Positions 181-32,998 of a stretch of 33,768 nt of DNA are shown here, piece by piece. The number at the start of each line of letters is the position of its first letter. Position 1 is the first letter of the stretch. The stretch lies in contig JAAYHR010000026.1 in NCBI GenBank assembly GCA_012735275.1, forward strand, positions 1 through 33,768, given 5' to 3'. The translations under genes and the position numbers were made by a program. This DNA comes from Erysipelothrix sp. GTDB taxonomy: Bacteria > Bacillota_I > Bacilli_A > Erysipelotrichales > Erysipelotrichaceae. Under the pieces are notes generated by a model. The model had not been told where the DNA came from, did no database searches, and was given only the letters and a program-made list of their open reading frames with translations.

Positions 181-2259
181 CTACTTACTCTGAACTTTAG
201 ATCTTCTTCTATTTATTTTAGCAATAGTAAATACAGAGATTTTGAGTAATGTAATGTGTGGATAGATATTATTTTCTACACCTGTTTCAGGTGTCTTTGG
301 TTTATCCACAATTACTGGCACATTTGTATCTTCGTCTTTATTATCTTTATCTATTTCTTTTATCTCAGTGTCTTCTTTTTCAGTATTATCTTCAACATCT
401 GAATCAATATCTTCATCTTTTTCATTATTATCTTTATCAGGTTCTTCAACTTCTGGCTTTTTAGTTTCTTCTGGCTTATCGACTTCTGCTAAGATTAAAC
501 TTAACTTATCTTCAAGTGAATCAACTAAAGTCTGAGTAGCTGTATCATCCTCAAGTATCAACTTCGCAAATCTTAAGTTATCTAAATCATTTTCATTTAA
601 CTCATATTGATTATCAATTTCAACAGTTCTTAATTTTGGTTGCTTTTCAAATTTTCCTAGTGTAGCTTCTAACTTAGACTTATCAACATTTGTAATAAAG
701 CTTGCATCAATATGATTAGTTTCAGAAGTTAAATCATCATTTAATAATGCCCCTTCTAAGTTATTTAAAATATAATCTCTTGCTGATATATCGTTGATTG
801 CTAAATCTTTTAAGACTTTATAAAGAGCCCTAACACTATTTTTATGACTTGGTGATTTGTATTCAGTGCTCTCAATCTTGTTAATAACGAAATCTGTTGC
901 GTTAAAATTATCATTATATCCAAGCCCCTCATAAACTAAACTTGTAATCGTGCCATAGTCATTAGTATTGAAACCTTTTGTCCAGAAATCATTTTTGTCT
1001 GGACCCATAATTGGACTGTTTCTAGCATTAGTGAATAAAACAATCACTAGATTATCTTCAGGATCTATCTGTGTTAGCGTTCCTGTCCATCCAGTGTGTC
1101 CAATTGTGGCCTCACTAGCATAGTTTGAAAAGGCCCAACCATATGCTTGATCTTTACCTTGCTTTCTCCAACCATAGGCATATGTATCATTTAAATCACT
1201 TGGTTGGACTACTTCATCAATAGTTTCTTGACTAAATACTTCATAATTGTTCAATGTACCACCATCAAGCATTAATTGTGCTAGAACAGCTGTGTCTTTT
1301 GCACTTGCAAATAGTCCTGCATGTCCTGATACACCTGCAAATGAATGAAATGCTTTCTCATCATGTACTTCGCCAGTTACTATTGTTTCGCGATAATTAT
1401 TAAAGAATTCTCTACCGTCACGAGTATTACCATGAAGCTCAGATGATGTTGTTTGCTTTGCATCAAATCCGCTATTTAATGGATTAAAGCTAACATTTTT
1501 AAGTCCAAGTGGACCATATACTTCTTTGTCTAAATATTCATCTAGTGGCATTCCAGTAATTTCTTCCACAATCTTACCTAGTAACATGAAGTCAACATCA
1601 GAGTATCTTACTTTGGTTCCAAGATCATATTCGATTGGAGTTAATAATAGTTTACTAAGTATCTCATCTTCATCTTGAGTATATAACCAGTTTTCTGTAT
1701 GACCATCATTTCCTAAGTTTCCTAAAAAGTTATTATTATGGTACTTAGGACTAGCAATAAAACCCGAGTCATGTCTAAGTAGATGTCCAATATTCATTAG
1801 TGACTGTTGATCAACACCAATCCCAATATATTTAAAATCGGGGAAGATATCTACAACTTTGGTATCCATTGTTATTTTACCTTGAGTGATTAATCTTTGG
1901 ATTGCATAGTTTCCTGCATACATCTTAGTATTACTAGCTAGATCGAAAAGCGTTTCATCAGTTACTCTATTTCGCTCTGCAACAGGAACTACTTCAACTT
2001 CGTCTAGGACAACACTGCCATCTCTGACAATATTCTTATAACTGTTTGTATAACCATACGATTCTTTCTTAACAGTCTTTCCATCTTTTAAAACTACTAG
2101 TTGCGCTCCTGATAGTCCATAGCTAACTTCTGCTTCAACTATCATATCAATTAATTGAAATGCACTAACTGCTTCACTCACTTCCTCAACATTTTTAGCA
2201 TTGATGTTACTTACTAACAATGTTAAAGAAAACAAAATTACAACAAAATTTTTAAGCAT
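181..2259 (-). CDS. Secreted beta-lactamase-family serine hydrolase with acidic linker and sortase-like C-terminus
   Basis: A 692-residue protein starting at the ATG at 2259, which has a strong AGGAGG five bases upstream; the open frame extends upstream to a GTG at 2337 without a ribosome site. Residues 1-21 form a signal peptide (hydrophobic core, then NINA). The catalytic domain has the class C beta-lactamase/PBP4* motifs: SNTK (109-112, SxxK nucleophile), YSD (219-221, YxN position) and HTG (388-390, KTG position), plus LLRHDSGF (160-167). Family members are esterases, D-aminopeptidases or peptidoglycan-active enzymes, so the substrate is open. Residues 590-650 are a strongly acidic Asp/Glu/Lys linker. 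The end has TPETG (656-660), a modestly hydrophobic stretch interrupted by a Lys, and a basic tail containing RRR, like a non-canonical LPXTG sorting signal. The protein is probably exported and perhaps wall-anchored; anchoring is an inference. Confidence 0.85.
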   Translation of the reverse strand: MLKNFVVILFSLTLLVSNINAKNVEEVSEAVSAFQLIDMIVEAEVSYGLSGAQLVVLKDGKTVKKESYGYTNSYKNIVRDGSVVLDEVEVVPVAERNRVTDETLFDLASNTKMYAGNYAIQRLITQGKITMDTKVVDIFPDFKYIGIGVDQQSLMNIGHLLRHDSGFIASPKYHNNNFLGNLGNDGHTENWLYTQDEDEILSKLLLTPIEYDLGTKVRYSDVDFMLLGKIVEEITGMPLDEYLDKEVYGPLGLKNVSFNPLNSGFDAKQTTSSELHGNTRDGREFFNNYRETIVTGEVHDEKAFHSFAGVSGHAGLFASAKDTAVLAQLMLDGGTLNNYEVFSQETIDEVVQPSDLNDTYAYGWRKQGKDQAYGWAFSNYASEATIGHTGWTGTLTQIDPEDNLVIVLFTNARNSPIMGPDKNDFWTKGFNTNDYGTITSLVYEGLGYNDNFNATDFVINKIESTEYKSPSHKNSVRALYKVLKDLAINDISARDYILNNLEGALLNDDLTSETNHIDASFITNVDKSKLEATLGKFEKQPKLRTVEIDNQYELNENDLDNLRFAKLILEDDTATQTLVDSLEDKLSLILAEVDKPEETKKPEVEEPDKDNNEKDEDIDSDVEDNTEKEDTEIKEIDKDNKDEDTNVPVIVDKPKTPETGVENNIYPHITLLKISVFTIAKINRRRSKVQSK

Positions 2260-2279
2260 ATTTTCCTCCTTTTGACGAC

Positions 2280-2317
2280 AAAAAAGCCAAGGAAAGATTA
2301 AAATCTTTTCCTTGGCT
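2280..2317 (-). terminator. Strong terminator hairpin inside the leader of the serine hydrolase gene
   Basis: On the minus strand a 15-bp stem (AGCCAAGG...CCTTGGCT, one bulged A, two-base loop) is followed at once by six T. It lies downstream of a candidate promoter at 2351-2359 and 21 bases upstream of the ATG at 2259. The preceding gene (lemA) has its own terminator at 2421-2449, so this one appears to act on the hydrolase transcript: a leader attenuator, or the 3' end of a roughly 65-base small RNA. I recognise no known riboswitch class in the short leader. Confidence 0.75.
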
Positions 2318-2350
2318 AATGCTTGTCTAAATAACACGCCTATACGGACT

Positions 2351-16050: not shown

Positions 16051-17022
16051 TTAGTCATTGAATAATGAGTAAATATTTGAAACTGGTGTTTTTTCATTAA
16101 TAGCTTGAATTGTTTTAGCTAGCATATTTGCTACTGAAATTTGCTTAATTTTTGCTACACCTTTTGCGGCTTCTGGTAATTTGATTGAATTAGAAACTAC
16201 TAATTCTTTTATTGATGAATTATTAATTCGATTAACTGCGTCACCTGATAATACACCGTGTGAACATGCAGCGTATACTGCTGTTGCGCCATGTTTGTAT
16301 AGCATATCAATACCAGCGACCATTGAACCACCTGTATCAATCATGTCATCGATAACGATAGCAGTTTTATTTGCTACATCACCAATTAGGTTGATTGCTT
16401 CAGCTTCATTTGGTTTTGAACGACGTTTGTCAATAATCGCAACTGTTGAATTTGGAATTGTATCAGCTAATTTACGGGCTCTTGTTGCTCCACCATGGTC
16501 TGGTGATACAACTACGATATCATTAGTGATTTCACCATTAGTTGCTTTTGATCTAAAGTATTGACCAAACATTGAAACTATTGATAAGTCATCCGTTGGT
16601 ATCTTGAAGAAACCTTGAATCTGTGGTGCATGTAAATCAATCGTAACCATACGATCTGCTCCTGCTGCTTCATATAAATCTGCCATTAATCTTGCAGAGA
16701 TTGGTTGACGAGCACGTGCTTTACGGTCCTGTCTTGCATAACCAAAGTATGGCATTACAACTGTAACTTCTTTCGCTGAAGCTCGTTTACAAGCATCTAG
16801 TGCAATTAATACTTCCATAACCGTTGAGCTTGTTGGAGCGTTTGTTGATTGAACAATGAATACATGTTTTCCACGAACTGATTCTTCCGGTTCAACAATA
16901 ATTTCTCCATCGGCAAAATGTTCTACTTTACATCTGCCTCGTCTTACTTTTAAGTGTTCACAAATTTCATCTGCTAATTCTACACTTGCTGATAAAGCAA
17001 ATACAATAATATCCTTTTCCAT
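16051..17022 (-). CDS. prs: Ribose-phosphate pyrophosphokinase
   Basis: PRPP synthetase, 323 residues: ribose-5-phosphate plus ATP gives PRPP and AMP, feeding purine, pyrimidine, histidine and NAD synthesis. Visible motifs: FADGEIIVEPEESVRGKHVF, the ATP loop FGYARQDRKARARQPISARL with the catalytic HAPQIQGFF segment, SPDHGGATRARKLA, and the PRPP loop VIDDMIDTGGS. Length and order are those of class I bacterial enzymes. It starts three bases after the glmU stop with an AGGGAT ribosome site, and is last in the mnmE-to-prs block; glmU-prs adjacency is the same as in Bacillus. Confidence 0.97.
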   Translation of the reverse strand: MEKDIIVFALSASVELADEICEHLKVRRGRCKVEHFADGEIIVEPEESVRGKHVFIVQSTNAPTSSTVMEVLIALDACKRASAKEVTVVMPYFGYARQDRKARARQPISARLMADLYEAAGADRMVTIDLHAPQIQGFFKIPTDDLSIVSMFGQYFRSKATNGEITNDIVVVSPDHGGATRARKLADTIPNSTVAIIDKRRSKPNEAEAINLIGDVANKTAIVIDDMIDTGGSMVAGIDMLYKHGATAVYAACSHGVLSGDAVNRINNSSIKELVVSNSIKLPEAAKGVAKIKQISVANMLAKTIQAINEKTPVSNIYSLFND

Positions 17023-17025
17023 TAA

Positions 17026-18375
17026 CTAATTATCCCTTTCTAGATATAACTTACCTTTTCCATTCTTAATCTCAGCACGGCTTCTTCCAATAATCATATC
17101 GCCATCTTCAACTGTACCACTCACAACTGAACCAGCTGCCACAACAACTTGATTACCTATATCCATTGGAGCAATCAATGTTGATGAACTTCCGATAAAA
17201 CTATCATCGCCTATATTAGTCGTTGATTTTGACTTACCATTATAGTTTGCAGTCACAACTCCCCAACCAATATTACAACGATTTCCGACATTTGTATTTC
17301 CTAGGTATACGTTATGCGCTAATGCATTGTTATCCTGTAGTGTTACTTGCTTAAGTTCTACTGATGTACCAATACGGTTCTTATTTCCGATTACTACATA
17401 TTCTCTTAAGTTTGCCCAAGGGCCAAAGTTATTATGATCTTTTACAATACTCTTAATAATTCGCGATTGCTCGATTGTATTCGCAACTCCAATTTCACTA
17501 TCCTTAATGAAATTCCCGAAGTTAAGGGTATTGTATCTGCCGATTTTTGTTTTTCCAACAATAATATTATTTTGATATATTACGGTATCATATCCGATTT
17601 CAACATCACTACCGATGACGACGCTATCGCCATCATATATTGTAACACCATTATCAAGCCAATGGCTAACAATTCGATTTCTTTCCCAGTTTGTCGCTAA
17701 AACTAAGTCCTGCCGAGTGTAAATTGGTAGTGCTTCTAAGTAATCTTCAATCTTATATGGTAAAACATGGTGTCCATCAGCTTTAAATAATGGAACCAAA
17801 GCAAATGGATTAACTTCTTGTTTAGCATCTTCAACTTGCTTTAAATATTTATATAAAAGTTTATTATCAAATGCAAAGACATCTAATGCAACTTCCTTAA
17901 CTTGTTTCTGATCGGTATTAGCTTCGCGATAATCTACTAGTGATCTAACAGTGTCAATTGGATTTCTTAAGACAATTGCTTGATCCTTATTAATACGGGT
18001 ATCTGAAGTTAGCATTACCATTGGAAACTCAGCGACCTTTTCAATCATTGCTTGATAAGTTGCTTGGGTAATATTTGGAACATTACCATAAGTAAGTATC
18101 GTTACCCCTTCTTTATCTTCAATTAATTCAGCAAGTTTCTTAAAATCAACAATATCATTATTTGTAAATAAATACTCACAATTATTTGGGAGTGTTTCTT
18201 TTACTTTCTTGTTGGCTTTATCAATTACTGCAGTGATTGCATCAAAATTCATTATTGAAAAGTTATCCACTTGTTTATTTATCATTGGCTTATCAATTAT
18301 TTCATGGAAAATTGATGGAATATTTGACTTTAACCCTTCAATATTTTTATTCGCTATTATTATTACTTTTTTCAT
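17026..18375 (-). CDS. glmU: GlmU-family protein with intact acetyltransferase and degenerate uridylyltransferase domain
   Basis: A 449-residue protein with GlmU length and layout. The start at 18375 is chosen because AAGG sits six bases upstream; an ATG at 18381 touches it. The C-terminal left-handed beta-helix (about 252-435) keeps the residues needed for GlcN-1-P acetylation by position: R324, K342, H354 and Y357 (LAHNVYLG), N368 (NIGWG), N377 and K383 (ANYNG...K). The N-terminal half (1-230) aligns in spacing with the uridylyltransferase domain (GLKSNIPSIFHEIIDKPMI) but lacks its catalytic features: LAAGxGTRM reads IIANKNIEGLK, the metal Asp of GDxP is Asn98 (YGNVP), QxxGTAHA is absent, and the late Asn/Asp metal ligand (GVND) is replaced by IYTR. 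It probably makes GlcNAc-1-P only. It overlaps ispE by 29 bases. Confidence 0.9.
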   Translation of the reverse strand: MKKVIIIANKNIEGLKSNIPSIFHEIIDKPMINKQVDNFSIMNFDAITAVIDKANKKVKETLPNNCEYLFTNNDIVDFKKLAELIEDKEGVTILTYGNVPNITQATYQAMIEKVAEFPMVMLTSDTRINKDQAIVLRNPIDTVRSLVDYREANTDQKQVKEVALDVFAFDNKLLYKYLKQVEDAKQEVNPFALVPLFKADGHHVLPYKIEDYLEALPIYTRQDLVLATNWERNRIVSHWLDNGVTIYDGDSVVIGSDVEIGYDTVIYQNNIIVGKTKIGRYNTLNFGNFIKDSEIGVANTIEQSRIIKSIVKDHNNFGPWANLREYVVIGNKNRIGTSVELKQVTLQDNNALAHNVYLGNTNVGNRCNIGWGVVTANYNGKSKSTTNIGDDSFIGSSSTLIAPMDIGNQVVVAAGSVVSGTVEDGDMIIGRSRAEIKNGKGKLYLERDN

Positions 18376-19255
18376 AGGCATCCTTCTTTCTTGTTATGTG
18401 CTCAGACATACTAACATCTTTTATTACTTTTGCTTTTTTAACAAATGAGTATTTATCAAAAAAGTGACTAACAGCTCGATTTACCAAATCTTCATCCTGG
18501 CTAATGCCAAAAACGGTTGATCCCGCACCTGTCATAATTGCATTATCAAAACCAAATTCAATTAATTCTTTTTTAATACGTTTTATTTCTGGTGAAATAC
18601 TCGCTGCGACTTCTTCCAGGGCATTCCCCATGTTATCCACTAACATTTGATAGTTGTTAGTTTCAAGAGCTTCAATAACCTTCGCTGAGTCGAACTCTTT
18701 TAAGGTTTTTGATTTAATTCTTTTAAAAACCATTGGGGTTGATAAACCTTTCTTAGGTTTAACAATAAAAATATGAAAATCTAAATTAACTTTAACTGGA
18801 TTGATAATATTTCCAATTCCTTCAACATGGGCCGGCTTTCCATACATTGTAAATGGAGCATCCGTTTCAACTAAATCAGCAAACTCTAATAACTTATCAT
18901 CAGACATATCTAATTCTAGATAGTCATTAAGCATTTTTATTACTGTTGCAGCGTTAGCTGAACCACCCCCCATACCTGAGCGTGTTGGAATATTCTTAAC
19001 AACCTTTATATCAAAGTTCTCTTTAAAGTGATATTCATTTCTTAATATATTAATCGCTTTTATAACTGAGTTTCTCTTGTCGACTGGCAAATAATTCTTA
19101 TCAGTAGTCATTTCCATTGTATCATTTTCTGATATTTCGACAGTATCAAAGAGTGAGATTGGAACCATAACCATATCCTGGTTGTGATAACCATCATCAC
19201 GGCGATTAACAATATTGAGACATAGATTCATTTTAGCATAAGATTTTCGTTTCAT
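18347..19255 (-). CDS. ispE: 4-diphosphocytidyl-2-C-methyl-D-erythritol kinase
   Basis: IspE, a GHMP kinase of the MEP isoprenoid pathway; it phosphorylates CDP-methylerythritol. The protein has 302 residues from the ATG at 19255, with GGAG six bases upstream; an adjacent ATG at 19258 and an open frame to 19285 are less likely. Motifs: SYAKMNLCLNIVNRRDDGYH, the ATP loop IPTRSGMGGGSANAA (89-103; the usual GLAGGSSDAA in variant form), VETDAPF (D132 as the catalytic Asp), and the C-terminal MTGAGSTVFGI. It begins inside rsmA (overlap 23 bases) and runs into glmU, so translation is likely coupled. Unlike Bacillus, no purR, yabJ or spoVG lies between ispE and glmU. Confidence 0.95.
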   Translation of the reverse strand: MKRKSYAKMNLCLNIVNRRDDGYHNQDMVMVPISLFDTVEISENDTMEMTTDKNYLPVDKRNSVIKAINILRNEYHFKENFDIKVVKNIPTRSGMGGGSANAATVIKMLNDYLELDMSDDKLLEFADLVETDAPFTMYGKPAHVEGIGNIINPVKVNLDFHIFIVKPKKGLSTPMVFKRIKSKTLKEFDSAKVIEALETNNYQMLVDNMGNALEEVAASISPEIKRIKKELIEFGFDNAIMTGAGSTVFGISQDEDLVNRAVSHFFDKYSFVKKAKVIKDVSMSEHITRKKDAYEKSNNNSE

Positions 19256-20090
19256 CATACACTCCATATAGTCTAATATAATCATTAATATCCAGCTGGG
19301 CTGGTCGGCTATTCAGTGGGATTTTCGCACTTTCTAATAGGCTAGTTGTAAACTCATTTGAAAACTCAGTTCTAAGATTATTGAAGAGAGTTTTTCTTTT
19401 CTGTGTGAAGCACAGTTGTACAAATTTAATATAATCAGCTTTATCCTCAATCTTAGTATCCTTACGGACTAACTTAACGATAGCTGATGTTATATTTGGT
19501 TTTGGTAAAAATACATTCTTAGAAACATTGAAACTTAGATTACACTTGTAAAATGTTTTCGCAATAACTGTAACTGGACGATAATCCTTAGTGTTATGAG
19601 CAGATACTAAACGTTGACCAAACTCAGCTTGGACCATGATCATAACTTGATCAAATGGATCATCTAGTGCAAAGACTGATAAGAGGATATCTGATGTAAT
19701 ATAGTAAGGAAGATTCGCTACTAGATAAACATCTTTATACTCTTTTCTTAAATCAGTGACTAATTTTTGTAAATCCACTTTTAAAATATCTTCATGAATA
19801 ATTTCAAAGTTTTCTTTATCTTTAAAATTATCTTCCATTACTTCAACCATATTCTTATCTATTTCGATTGCGATAACCTTTTTCGATATCGTTAAAAGTT
19901 TTTCAGTTAAAGCACCAAGTCCAGGTCCCACTTCAACGATGACACAATCATCACTTTTATCGACATGATCAATAATCTTATCAATTACTTTTAAGTCAAC
20001 TAAAAAGTTTTGTCCTAAGGAAATTTTAGCTGACAGTTTATATTTATCTAATATTGCTTTTGTTGTTTGTAAACTACCGATATTCTCCAT
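19233..20090 (-). CDS. rsmA: 16S rRNA (adenine1518/1519-N6) dimethyltransferase
   Basis: RsmA/KsgA, 285 residues, dimethylates two adjacent adenines near the 3' end of 16S rRNA late in 30S assembly. Visible: SLGQNFLVD (24-32), the SAM-binding EVGPGLGALTE (53-63), the acidic EIDKN ribose-binding block, and catalytic NLPYYIT (126-132). The C-terminal domain has FLPKPNITSAIVKL and FTQKRKTLFNNL. The ATG at 20090 follows a GGAGG, and the gene overlaps rnmV by 17 bases, keeping the rnmV-ksgA pair seen in Bacillus. Confidence 0.97.
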   Translation of the reverse strand: MENIGSLQTTKAILDKYKLSAKISLGQNFLVDLKVIDKIIDHVDKSDDCVIVEVGPGLGALTEKLLTISKKVIAIEIDKNMVEVMEDNFKDKENFEIIHEDILKVDLQKLVTDLRKEYKDVYLVANLPYYITSDILLSVFALDDPFDQVMIMVQAEFGQRLVSAHNTKDYRPVTVIAKTFYKCNLSFNVSKNVFLPKPNITSAIVKLVRKDTKIEDKADYIKFVQLCFTQKRKTLFNNLRTEFSNEFTTSLLESAKIPLNSRPAQLDINDYIRLYGVYDETKILC

Positions 20091-20619
20091 TAATTTCCTC
20101 CATTATTTTCTTTAATTTATTTCCATCTATATTTAACATGATTAAACGTTTATAGAGTGTTTTAGCATTAGCATAAGTTATATCTAATTTATCACATAAC
20201 TTTGCTCTTAATTCACGACTATTTGAAAAACCATTTAATTGATTATCAATTAAATCTTGAAATGTTAAATCAACCACTTTATCGCCTGTAGAAATATAAT
20301 TTTCTAAGGCTTTTTTAATACTTTCGATACTGGCATTTTCAATTCCAATATCACCATTTAAGCGCGCATCATTTCTTTTAATAAATGCATGTTCGGCACT
20401 TGGAATTTGCTCAGCGATTAATGAGCGAATACGTTCCCCAGGACCATCTGGATCAGTTAAGATAATAATCCCCTTTTCACTATGGACTTTCTTTAGCATT
20501 CTCATTAAATCTTTTGATAAACCGGAGCCTGATGTTGATATTACAAAAGCATCGACTGCCCGCTTAACTGCTAAAATATCATTTTTTCCTTCGACCACAA
20601 TTACTTTAGAAATTTTCAT
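20074..20619 (-). CDS. rnmV: Ribonuclease M5
   Basis: RNase M5 matures 5S rRNA precursors in Firmicutes. The 181-residue protein has an N-terminal TOPRIM domain with VVEGKND (8-14, catalytic Glu), STSGSGLS and LTDPDGPGERIR (54-65, DxD metal site), followed by the C-terminal domain with a helix-rich tail. Length is normal. It heads the rnmV-rsmA-ispE-glmU-prs series and has a promoter at 20640-20667. Confidence 0.95.
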   Translation of the reverse strand: MKISKVIVVEGKNDILAVKRAVDAFVISTSGSGLSKDLMRMLKKVHSEKGIIILTDPDGPGERIRSLIAEQIPSAEHAFIKRNDARLNGDIGIENASIESIKKALENYISTGDKVVDLTFQDLIDNQLNGFSNSRELRAKLCDKLDITYANAKTLYKRLIMLNIDGNKLKKIMEEINGEYR

Positions 20620-21942: not shown

Positions 21943-21954
21943 TATTTCAGTCCT
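21930..21954 (-). terminator. Terminator of the 3D lipoprotein gene, containing stop codons of both convergent genes
   Basis: AGGACTGA (21935-21942) pairs with TCAGTCCT (21947-21954), loop of four. On the minus strand six T follow. The plus strand lacks a U-run after the stem, so the hairpin serves the minus gene better. The stops of both genes (TGA at 21940-21942, TAG at 21953-21955) lie in or touch its arms. Confidence 0.75.
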
Positions 21955-22792
21955 ACTTACATCCATTATTTCTAACATATGTTTTAAAACCAACAATTTC
22001 AACTTTCGTTGTTCCAGCACTTGGGCTTCCACTTTGGGAAATAGCTCCAAGATTTTTTTCACTACCGGCGAATAAGTCGATATCACTGCCAGAAACACCA
22101 CGGTTTCCAACTATCGCTAAAAAGGGTTGTCCTTTTGTTATCCCGCCACCGGAAAATTGGTGATTTGATATTTCTACTACTGTACACATTGGTATGGCAT
22201 TAGATGTTGCGATAACATGCATACCGCCATATGTTAATCCATTTTTCCATGATCCATCAAATTGTCTGATTTTATTGCCCGAGAATTTAATTCCCGATGC
22301 TGATCCGGAAAAATCATCACTAGTAACTGAACAGCCATCACAGTCGTAACCATATCTTGTTACACGACGTGGATTCCACACAGCGCCAACCTTTGCTGTT
22401 TGTCCATATTGGAATACTGTAGGCTCAGCCTCAGTATATACTTCCGTTCCAGGTACTCTTACTGATGAGACGACTTCATTAAACTGATTGTAGGTTTTTA
22501 ATAAGGTAACTTTAGATCTAGCGTCCGTTGCGTCACTGACTTTTGCTGCCATCCAAGGGTAACCTTGACCATTTGATTCTCTATATTCTATTTTATTTTG
22601 TTTTGTTCCTATTATTGGTTCTTCTACAGTTATATACTCTTGCGTATAGTTTGCTTGCTTTATAACTTGATCCTTAGTTTGATCATCAGCTAAGACTTGT
22701 AGAACAATATTTTCACTATCTTCATTAAAAACACATCCACTTAGAACTAATAATAATGAAAGTAATAAAATTACTCTCCTCTTTGCTATCAT
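21953..22792 (-). CDS. 3D-domain lipoprotein (YabE-like position), secreted
   Basis: A 279-residue predicted lipoprotein: a basic start, a hydrophobic core and a lipobox VLSGC with Cys20. Residues about 48-130 look like a G5-type or related beta domain. Residues about 140-245 form the 3D/double-psi barrel module: GYDCDGCSV, GIKFSGNKI, GMHVIATSNAIPMCTVVEI, GQPFLAIV and GSDIDLFAGS. The 3D domain is named for three Asp; the usual DTGG/DRGG element reads GNRGVSG here, so one Asp is Asn230, while the IDLF Asp is kept. Related proteins act on peptidoglycan, either as lytic enzymes or as binding factors. The location, between tatD and rnmV, equals that of Bacillus yabE. An AAGGAG site precedes the ATG at 22792. 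Confidence 0.82.
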   Translation of the reverse strand: MIAKRRVILLLSLLLVLSGCVFNEDSENIVLQVLADDQTKDQVIKQANYTQEYITVEEPIIGTKQNKIEYRESNGQGYPWMAAKVSDATDARSKVTLLKTYNQFNEVVSSVRVPGTEVYTEAEPTVFQYGQTAKVGAVWNPRRVTRYGYDCDGCSVTSDDFSGSASGIKFSGNKIRQFDGSWKNGLTYGGMHVIATSNAIPMCTVVEISNHQFSGGGITKGQPFLAIVGNRGVSGSDIDLFAGSEKNLGAISQSGSPSAGTTKVEIVGFKTYVRNNGCK

Positions 22793-31324: not shown

Positions 31325-32998
31325 TCAATCTATTTTATATTTTATATAATCACTTAGTATCTTAAAGTGATTCTCTGCTAATTCTTGGCTCTCGCCTATT
31401 GCAGCATAGTATACTTTAATTTTCGGTTCAGTACCACTTGGACGAACAGCAATCCAGCCTAACTCTTCAAAGAATACTTTAAATACGGTCGCTTTTTCAA
31501 AATCTAAATGGTTAACTGCATTACTTGTAATTGATTCTTGCGTATCATAGTTTTCAATTTTAATGATATTACCAAAGTCATTTTGTCCAAGTGTTTCTGA
31601 ATAAAACTTATTCATAATTGCTGCAACTTTCTCAGCACCATCAAGTCCTGCAACTGTAATACTTTCTTGTTGATCAACATGATAGCCAAACTCTGCATAT
31701 ACTTCTTCTAAAACATCAATTAGAGTTTTACCTTCTAACTTAGCGTGAGCTGCGATTTCAGCTAAGAAAAGTGTTGCTGAAACTGCATCCTTATCACGTA
31801 CAAGTGGTAAAGGTAATGAACCATAACTTTCTTCATAAGCAAAGATGAAATTATCTAAGTTATCTGCTTCATCAATTAATGTTCCTAGATATTTAAATCC
31901 AGTTAAAGTTTTATGCATTGTTGCATTATATTTATTAGCAATCTTATCGCCTAAATCACTCGTAACAATTGTGTTTGCAACAAATGGTGTTTTTGGTAGA
32001 CTATTGCTTTTAACACGTTTTTCAAAGATATAGTTTAAGATAATCGCTGTTGTTTCATTTCCATTTAGTAATCTAAATTCTCCATCATGTCTTACTGCCA
32101 CTCCTAAACGATCTGCATCGGGGTCAGTTGTAACAACGATATCAGCATTGTTTTCTTTAGCAAGCTTAATTCCTTCAATATATGCATCAGTATCTTCTGG
32201 ATTTGGTGATAGCGTATTTGAAAAGTCACCATCTATATTTGATTGTGATTCAACTAAGCTATAGTTATAACCTGCTTGATCTAACAGTGCTGGAATAACA
32301 TTAATACCTGCTCCATGTTGCGGTGAGTAGACTAGTGAAAATTCAGCATTTTTTACATAATCTAATTGTTGCGCTAATACTTCATTACGATATTTATCGA
32401 TTAGAGTATTGTCGATATGTTTAATTAGATTTGCTTGTTCTGGATTAGCTTGTGTTTCAATATTTAAATAATCTTCAATTTGATTAACATTTTCAACTAC
32501 TTGATTAGCTAAACTTGTGATTAATTGGCAGCCAGCTTCATTATAGACTTTAAAGCCGTTATATTCTTTTGGATTATGTGAAGCGGTAATATTGATTCCT
32601 CCACCGCAATTTAATTCTCTAACTGCGTAAGATAGTAGTGGTGTCGCCATTACTTTATCGTAAATGAAGACCTCAATATTTTGTGTCGCTAAAACATTAG
32701 CAGAAATTTCCGCAAACTTTTTTGAGTTGTTACGGTTATCATATGCGATTGCTACACGTTTATTGAAGTTTCGACTGTTTACAAATTGTGCAAATGCTAA
32801 AGCAGCACGTGCGATTGTAAACTCATTAATTCGATTAGTACCAAGGCCCATAAGCCCACGCATTCCTGCTGTACCAAACTCGACATTTTTATGAAATGCT
32901 TCCTCAAGTTGCTCAGGAGTCATCATATTTATTTGATTTTTGTACTCTTGTGAAACCTTATCACTATTCATCCATTGCTCGATTGTTAACTTTGTCAT
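31325..32998 (-). CDS. pgcA: Phosphoglucomutase / phosphomannomutase
   Basis: A 557-residue alpha-D-phosphohexomutase. NVEFGTAGMRG at the start, ITASHNPKEYNG (137-148, phosphorylated Ser140), the metal loop DPDADRLGV (292-300), the sugar-specificity loop FAYEESYG, and RPSGTEPKIKVYY (phosphate-binding loop) are all present. The AGMRG version and the length match the PgcA type of Firmicutes, linking glucose-6-P and glucose-1-P. It follows ptsH at 53 bases, but a terminator lies between them and no clear promoter is seen ahead of it, so it may depend on read-through. It is probably co-transcribed with the downstream IMPase gene. Confidence 0.95.
   Translation of the reverse strand: MTKLTIEQWMNSDKVSQEYKNQINMMTPEQLEEAFHKNVEFGTAGMRGLMGLGTNRINEFTIARAALAFAQFVNSRNFNKRVAIAYDNRNNSKKFAEISANVLATQNIEVFIYDKVMATPLLSYAVRELNCGGGINITASHNPKEYNGFKVYNEAGCQLITSLANQVVENVNQIEDYLNIETQANPEQANLIKHIDNTLIDKYRNEVLAQQLDYVKNAEFSLVYSPQHGAGINVIPALLDQAGYNYSLVESQSNIDGDFSNTLSPNPEDTDAYIEGIKLAKENNADIVVTTDPDADRLGVAVRHDGEFRLLNGNETTAIILNYIFEKRVKSNSLPKTPFVANTIVTSDLGDKIANKYNATMHKTLTGFKYLGTLIDEADNLDNFIFAYEESYGSLPLPLVRDKDAVSATLFLAEIAAHAKLEGKTLIDVLEEVYAEFGYHVDQQESITVAGLDGAEKVAAIMNKFYSETLGQNDFGNIIKIENYDTQESITSNAVNHLDFEKATVFKVFFEELGWIAVRPSGTEPKIKVYYAAIGESQELAENHFKILSDYIKYKID

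Follow-up and report, generated by a model that had tools for sequence, protein, structure and literature searches.

GlmU is regarded as an essential bifunctional enzyme and is an antibiotic target. The genome of an Erysipelothrix sp. encodes a glmU-derived protein whose first half appears catalytically dead, raising the question of whether this GlmU has been reduced to a single activity and, if so, which enzyme supplies UDP-GlcNAc. The gene lies in a 33,768-nucleotide stretch of DNA (hereafter, the window), corresponding to the first third of contig C4 in a draft assembly (1.07 Mb, 63 contigs, 84.6% complete; G000). The open reading frame, a relative of UDP-GlcNAc pyrophosphorylase/GlcN-1-P acetyltransferase, occupies 17026..18381 on the minus strand and encodes 451 amino acids from an ATG start; an earlier note on this DNA had the locus right, with the start six bases short and no strand. 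Residues 1 to 228 (17698..18381, minus strand) form the uridyltransferase (pyrophosphorylase) half, and residues 229 to 451 (17026..17697, minus strand) form the left-handed β-helix acetyltransferase half. The neighbors, assigned by Pfam and likewise on the minus strand, are the ribose-phosphate pyrophosphokinase gene prs downstream (16051..17022) and, upstream, an ispE-type GHMP kinase (18347..19285), the rRNA adenine dimethylase ksgA (19233..20090), and an rnmV-type Toprim/DUF4093 protein (20074..20619). The order rnmV-ksgA-ispE-glmU-prs is shared with the congener G002 (JAAZDN010000033.1, an independent assembly, 94% complete) and the more distant G012, which identifies the window gene as the orthologous glmU rather than a paralog. 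Genome-wide searches returned one GlmU match each in the window genome and the congener, and no second GlmU was found in either assembly (84.6% and 94% complete, respectively).

Two further genes of the window were recorded in passing. A putative lipoprotein of 279 residues (21953-22792, minus strand), lacking any Pfam or NCBIfam match, occupies the interval between tatD and rnmV and is syntenic in G002 and G012, a position resembling that of yabE in Bacillus. A secreted serine β-lactamase-like protein of 718 residues (181-2337, minus strand) has a tail that is acidic and rich in repeats, along with a sorting-like motif of the PETG type.

To examine the uridyltransferase half, the window protein was aligned with Streptococcus pneumoniae GlmU and 30 relatives (catalytic residues are numbered as in E. 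coli GlmU). Every catalytic or ligand residue tested in this half is replaced or deleted: the window protein lacks the Gly-rich loop, Arg18, Lys25, Gln76, Gln79, Gly81, Thr82, Asp105, Gly140, Glu154, and Asn227. The nucleotide loop LAAGKGTRM aligns with IIANKNIEGLK, as the earlier note had read it, and QLGTGHA (noted earlier as a missing QxxGTAHA) and GYGR are absent. The remaining motifs are altered from GD(T/C)P to GN(V)P, VEFKD to VDYRE, NTG to ALD, and GVND to PIYT, the last removing the second metal ligand as had been proposed. The metal-binding Asp of GDxP is Asn100 in the full reading frame, equivalent to the Asn98 previously reported when counted from the second ATG. One reading required correction: the lysine of KVLH had been taken as isoleucine, and the alignment instead places Ser23 at the lysine of PKVLH and Ile24 at the valine. 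Pfam detects hexapeptide repeats only in the window protein, with no NTP_transferase domain, and the scores fall below both NCBIfam GlmU cut-offs (PRK14354, 308.1 versus 450 bits; TIGR01173, 274.8 versus 366.9 bits). The N-terminal half is nevertheless homologous from end to end to an intact-GlmU profile (hhalign probability 99.8%, 222 columns). A shifted alignment, which would undermine the earlier diagnosis of a dead-looking half, was considered and rejected; several alignments and hhalign agree on a single register, and no displaced motifs were found.

The congener protein, 59% identical to that of the window, exhibits the same losses but retains the Asn-Thr of the NTG motif, while the uridyltransferase motifs are intact in all 28 other full-length relatives inspected. 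Recurrence of these losses in an independent assembly, with an N-terminal half 48.8% identical to that of the window, places them beyond chance or sequencing error. The loss of ligands suggests that the N-terminal half no longer binds UTP/Mg2+ or GlcNAc-1-P productively, and the same substitutions leave room for a changed activity.

The acetyltransferase half displays the opposite pattern. Eleven of 12 tested positions are kept (Arg333, Lys351, His363, Tyr366, Asn377, Asn386, Tyr387, Lys392, Ser405, Ala423, and Arg440), in agreement with the His, Tyr, Asn, and Lys positions named in the earlier note. The left-handed β-helix of the C-terminal domain is represented by Hexapep matches and by an AlphaFold model with pLDDT of about 63 to 94 over residues 260 to 370. 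The exception, not mentioned previously, is Ala380 of the acetyl-CoA site, which is Trp373 in the window protein (about 17263-17265). This tryptophan is common to the window genome and the congener and absent from the other relatives inspected, which carry Ala or Cys; Cys occurs in most family members. Staphylococcus aureus GlmU has a cysteine at this site, through which redox state is reported to affect the acetyltransferase (PMC11947611). The tryptophan, which is new to us, might weaken the acetyltransferase.

To determine whether this reduction is peculiar to the genus, GlmU was surveyed in 172 genomes of the family at least 90% complete, the window genome being counted in. Full-length GlmU was present in 66 genomes; in 23 (11 genera) the uridyltransferase half is decayed or deleted, 20 have no detectable GlmU, and one match is unlisted. 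About 62 genomes exhibit the reverse reduction, in which the uridyltransferase is intact and the acetyltransferase is truncated around residue 325 or gone (e.g., G017, G025, G031, G060, G080, and G102 [L079, L080, L081, L104, L105, and L106], with about 56 others). Each of the 23 uridyltransferase-dead proteins was inspected at the sequence level, as were six reverse-type proteins; the other reverse-type proteins and unfetched full-length proteins were classed by match ranges. A tree of the acetyltransferase half and Prs calls for four or more separate losses of the uridyltransferase. A single origin of all such losses was rejected (AU p=2e-79), as was a topology uniting the large g3/g57/g65/g70 group and the window genus (AU p=2e-5); the loss in the window genus is separate from that of the largest other clade. 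No uridyltransferase-dead GlmU was found in 24 genomes of the sister family, which lack GlmR; an apparent acetyltransferase-only GlmU in one of these (G057) proved to be cut off by a contig end. A scan of viral contigs for further GlmU sequences returned nothing.

A requirement for UDP-GlcNAc is indicated by the pathways retained. Genes for MurA, a MurF-type ligase, Ddl, and a RodA/FtsW-type protein are present in the window genome, together with those for an FnlA-like UDP-GlcNAc 4,6-dehydratase and a nonhydrolyzing (WecB-type) UDP-GlcNAc 2-epimerase. Two EPSP_synthase-family matches initially suggested two MurA copies, but one is AroA, leaving a single MurA. These genes contradict the suggestion in the earlier note of a reduced cell wall. 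A canonical GlmM scores above cut-off on contig C58 (L072:2369-3700), MurQ is also encoded, and no eukaryote-type UDPGP enzyme (PF01704) was found in the window genome. GlgC and GlgD are present in the congener (L160 and L186) and were not found in the window genome or in the third genus genome compared (G001), where the glycogen pathway may have disappeared or may lie outside the assembly.

These observations are consistent with a GlmU that has probably been reduced to a one-activity enzyme, with UDP-GlcNAc supplied by another enzyme, much as the earlier note had anticipated. Residue loss is seen in two species, loss recurs independently in the family, and the UDP-GlcNAc pathways and two candidate enzymes are present; the catalytic assignments are read from sequence. 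By this account, the β-helix half would convert GlcN-1-P from GlmM to GlcNAc-1-P, as its kept residues suggest, while the N-terminal half would bind neither UTP/Mg2+ nor GlcNAc-1-P productively and would persist under weaker selection, contributing to the trimer structurally. A trans-acting enzyme would then combine GlcNAc-1-P with UTP to form UDP-GlcNAc. The search for another uridylyltransferase proposed by the earlier note yielded two candidates, a 306-residue NTP-transferase and GlmR/YvcK.

The NTP-transferase, a 3PNN-like protein (C58:63150-64067), is intact and is the sole NTP_transferase-family gene found in the window genome (PF00483, 39 bits versus a cut-off of 21.2). It keeps LAAGMGSRYGG, Lys, Gln, PWGTTHA, ADD, and Glu, motifs that align column by column with those lost from the window GlmU (hhalign 96%); LAAGMGSRYGG, Gln, PWGTTHA, and ADD are invariant or nearly so across 22 homologs. 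The gene occurs in all three genus genomes and in 23 of 23 uridyltransferase-dead genomes, as compared to 54 of 66 with full-length GlmU (hypergeometric 0.02, uncorrected for kinship). One genome (G036) has the NTP-transferase without GlmU or GlmR. The gene adjoins murQ in the window genome and the congener, a context that is not conserved elsewhere and is thus uninformative. PDB entry 3pnn bears the molecule name "Conserved domain protein," and no characterized 3PNN-like member was found in the open-access literature searched. The NTP-transferase may instead make UDP-glucose, since searches turned up no GalU-like gene in the window genome or in several relatives with intact GlmU. That it forms UDP-GlcNAc in trans has roughly an even chance.

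The second candidate, GlmR/YvcK (PF01933, TIGR01826; C58:9448-10290, L107:9358-10302), scores 325 bits against a TIGR01826 cut-off of 196 and is judged somewhat short of evenly likely to be the enzyme that acts. A stricter alternative, in which GlmR is the sole UDP-GlcNAc-forming enzyme and the NTP-transferase stands in for GalU as the source of UDP-glucose, is a serious contender though the less probable reading. GlmR of Listeria, Bacillus, and Staphylococcus forms UDP-GlcNAc from GlcNAc-1-P and UTP in vitro (PMC10128056), so that the reaction has biochemical precedent in three Bacillota. GlmR is present in 165 of 172 family genomes and in none of the 24 sister-family genomes, where uridyltransferase-dead GlmU was not seen, and three genomes (G135, G136, and G167) encode GlmR but, at the search thresholds applied, neither GlmU nor the NTP-transferase. 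The lack of a GalU-like gene in the window genome also fits this alternative, as does a PgcA-type phosphohexomutase of 557 residues in the window (31325..32998, minus strand; Pfam and NCBIfam), a possible source of Glc-1-P. However, nearly every genome of the family has GlmR, and finding it therefore carries little weight. It occurs in 20 of the 23 uridyltransferase-dead genomes; in two of the three exceptions (G190 and G124) whiA is missing too, and these were set aside as probable assembly gaps. In the third (G137), rapZ ends three bases before whiA and glmR is cleanly gone from the operon (L128:583-2397), while the NTP-transferase is kept, which argues against GlmR as the only route. The proposed catalytic Asp pair, which matters in B. 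subtilis (PMC13046274) and corresponds to D40/D41 of Listeria GlmR, reads VADN rather than VADD in the window genome and the congener (L114:1298-2245), Asp-Asp in G001, and Asp-Ser in G010 and G011. The Asp-Asn pair is not decisive because the solved homolog 2ppv also reads VADN, and an initial reading of this GlmR as dead was dropped for that reason. Between the two candidates, the NTP-transferase is only slightly preferred; supply by a missed enzyme is improbable. Two nearly complete genomes (G018 and G140) have no candidates for GlmU, GlmR, or the NTP-transferase and were left uninterpreted. For the family as a whole, the more favored reading is that bifunctional GlmU came apart repeatedly, in both directions, and that in lineages such as that of the window, whose members are walled, the 3PNN-like enzyme (or GlmR alone) has become essential as the UDP-GlcNAc pyrophosphorylase.

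Selection on the two halves was compared between the window protein and its congener ortholog. Identity is 70% in the C-terminal half and about 49% in the N-terminal half, and dN is higher in the N-terminal half by a factor of 2.0, as compared to N/C ratios of 0.96 to 1.36 in six intact pairs. With dN at 0.44 and dS at 1.15 or more (the latter near saturation), the N-terminal half is relaxed yet still under purifying selection. This pattern fits a structural remnant, and survival of the half as a scaffold is plausible; acetyltransferase-only proteins lacking the half occur in six other genera. Repurposing of the N-terminal half as a ligand-binding or regulatory domain (e.g., in UDP-GlcNAc sensing or in docking a trans uridylyltransferase) would also account for its full length and its constraint (dN < dS) where those other genera dispense with it, and both species share some stretches without a difference, PxIFHEIIDKP among them. 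Similar constraint would, however, be expected if the half needed only to fold and pack in the trimer, and the comparison involves two sequences, for which AlphaFold gave an uninformative prediction of the N-terminal half (pLDDT below 50); repurposing is considered unlikely.

Decay may instead extend to the whole protein, with UDP-GlcNAc reaching the cell by a route that bypasses GlmU, as in relatives that have no GlmU or one with both halves decayed. Three g3 genomes are of the latter kind (G004, G128, and G137; L077:6785-7948, L102:2834-3958, and L103:2775-3884), their proteins also lacking Arg333, Lys351, and Asn377, and most other g3 genomes have no GlmU at all. The tryptophan at the Ala380 position could be a sign of such decay in the window genus. 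The acetyltransferase half, conserved at 11 of 12 positions and with half the dN of the N-terminal half, speaks against it, and a dead or dying protein is distinctly improbable. The window assembly, at 84.6% completeness, could have missed a second, intact enzyme, although the single GlmU of the 94% complete congener argues against a GlmU that merely went unassembled. That the gene is misassembled or chimeric, and that an ordinary GlmU sits in the 15% of the genome missing from this 63-contig draft, is very improbable: a long-diverged, independently assembled genome shows these losses at this locus too, there are no frameshifts, and each genome has one GlmU match.

Reduction of the window GlmU to its acetyltransferase remains the preferred reading. 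Searches of open-access literature on loss of a GlmU half in this family, GlmU pseudoenzymes, Erysipelothrix GlmU, or 3PNN returned nothing relevant; no earlier report of half-loss in the family was thus found, and the survey describes repeated loss of one activity of a known enzyme. Lineages missing one half of GlmU show that its two activities need not be linked. Such lineages are predicted to escape inhibitors aimed at the uridyltransferase site, and natural acetyltransferase-only variants offer material for structural work. Two proposals become testable: that GlmR can be a cell's only UDP-GlcNAc-forming enzyme, and what role the widespread 3PNN-like nucleotidyltransferase plays.

With bifunctional GlmU (PRK14354/TIGR01173; 4aaw of S. 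pneumoniae and 1hv9 of E. coli), the window protein shares length, domain order, β-helix residues, and adjacency to prs. It differs in lacking the Gly-rich loop, Lys25, Gln76, Gly-Thr, Asp105, Glu154, and Asn227, in scoring below both family cut-offs, and in a uridyltransferase half that evolves about twice as fast. The acetyltransferase-only proteins (G012, G014, G066, G189, G121, and G183) and shrunken ones (G026, G119, and G170) share loss of the uridyltransferase and retention of the acetyltransferase, and those inspected adjoin prs as in the window; their origins are independent, and their N-terminal domain is deleted or cut to roughly 140 to 170 residues. The 3PNN-like enzyme (PF00483) is in a sense the complement, keeping the motif set that the window GlmU lost and lacking an acetyltransferase domain. 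GlmR/YvcK is encoded in the window genome and showed no relationship to GlmU in the sequence searches made here; its homologs catalyze the step apparently lost from the window GlmU. In other bacteria it works alongside an active GlmU, whereas here it might replace one.
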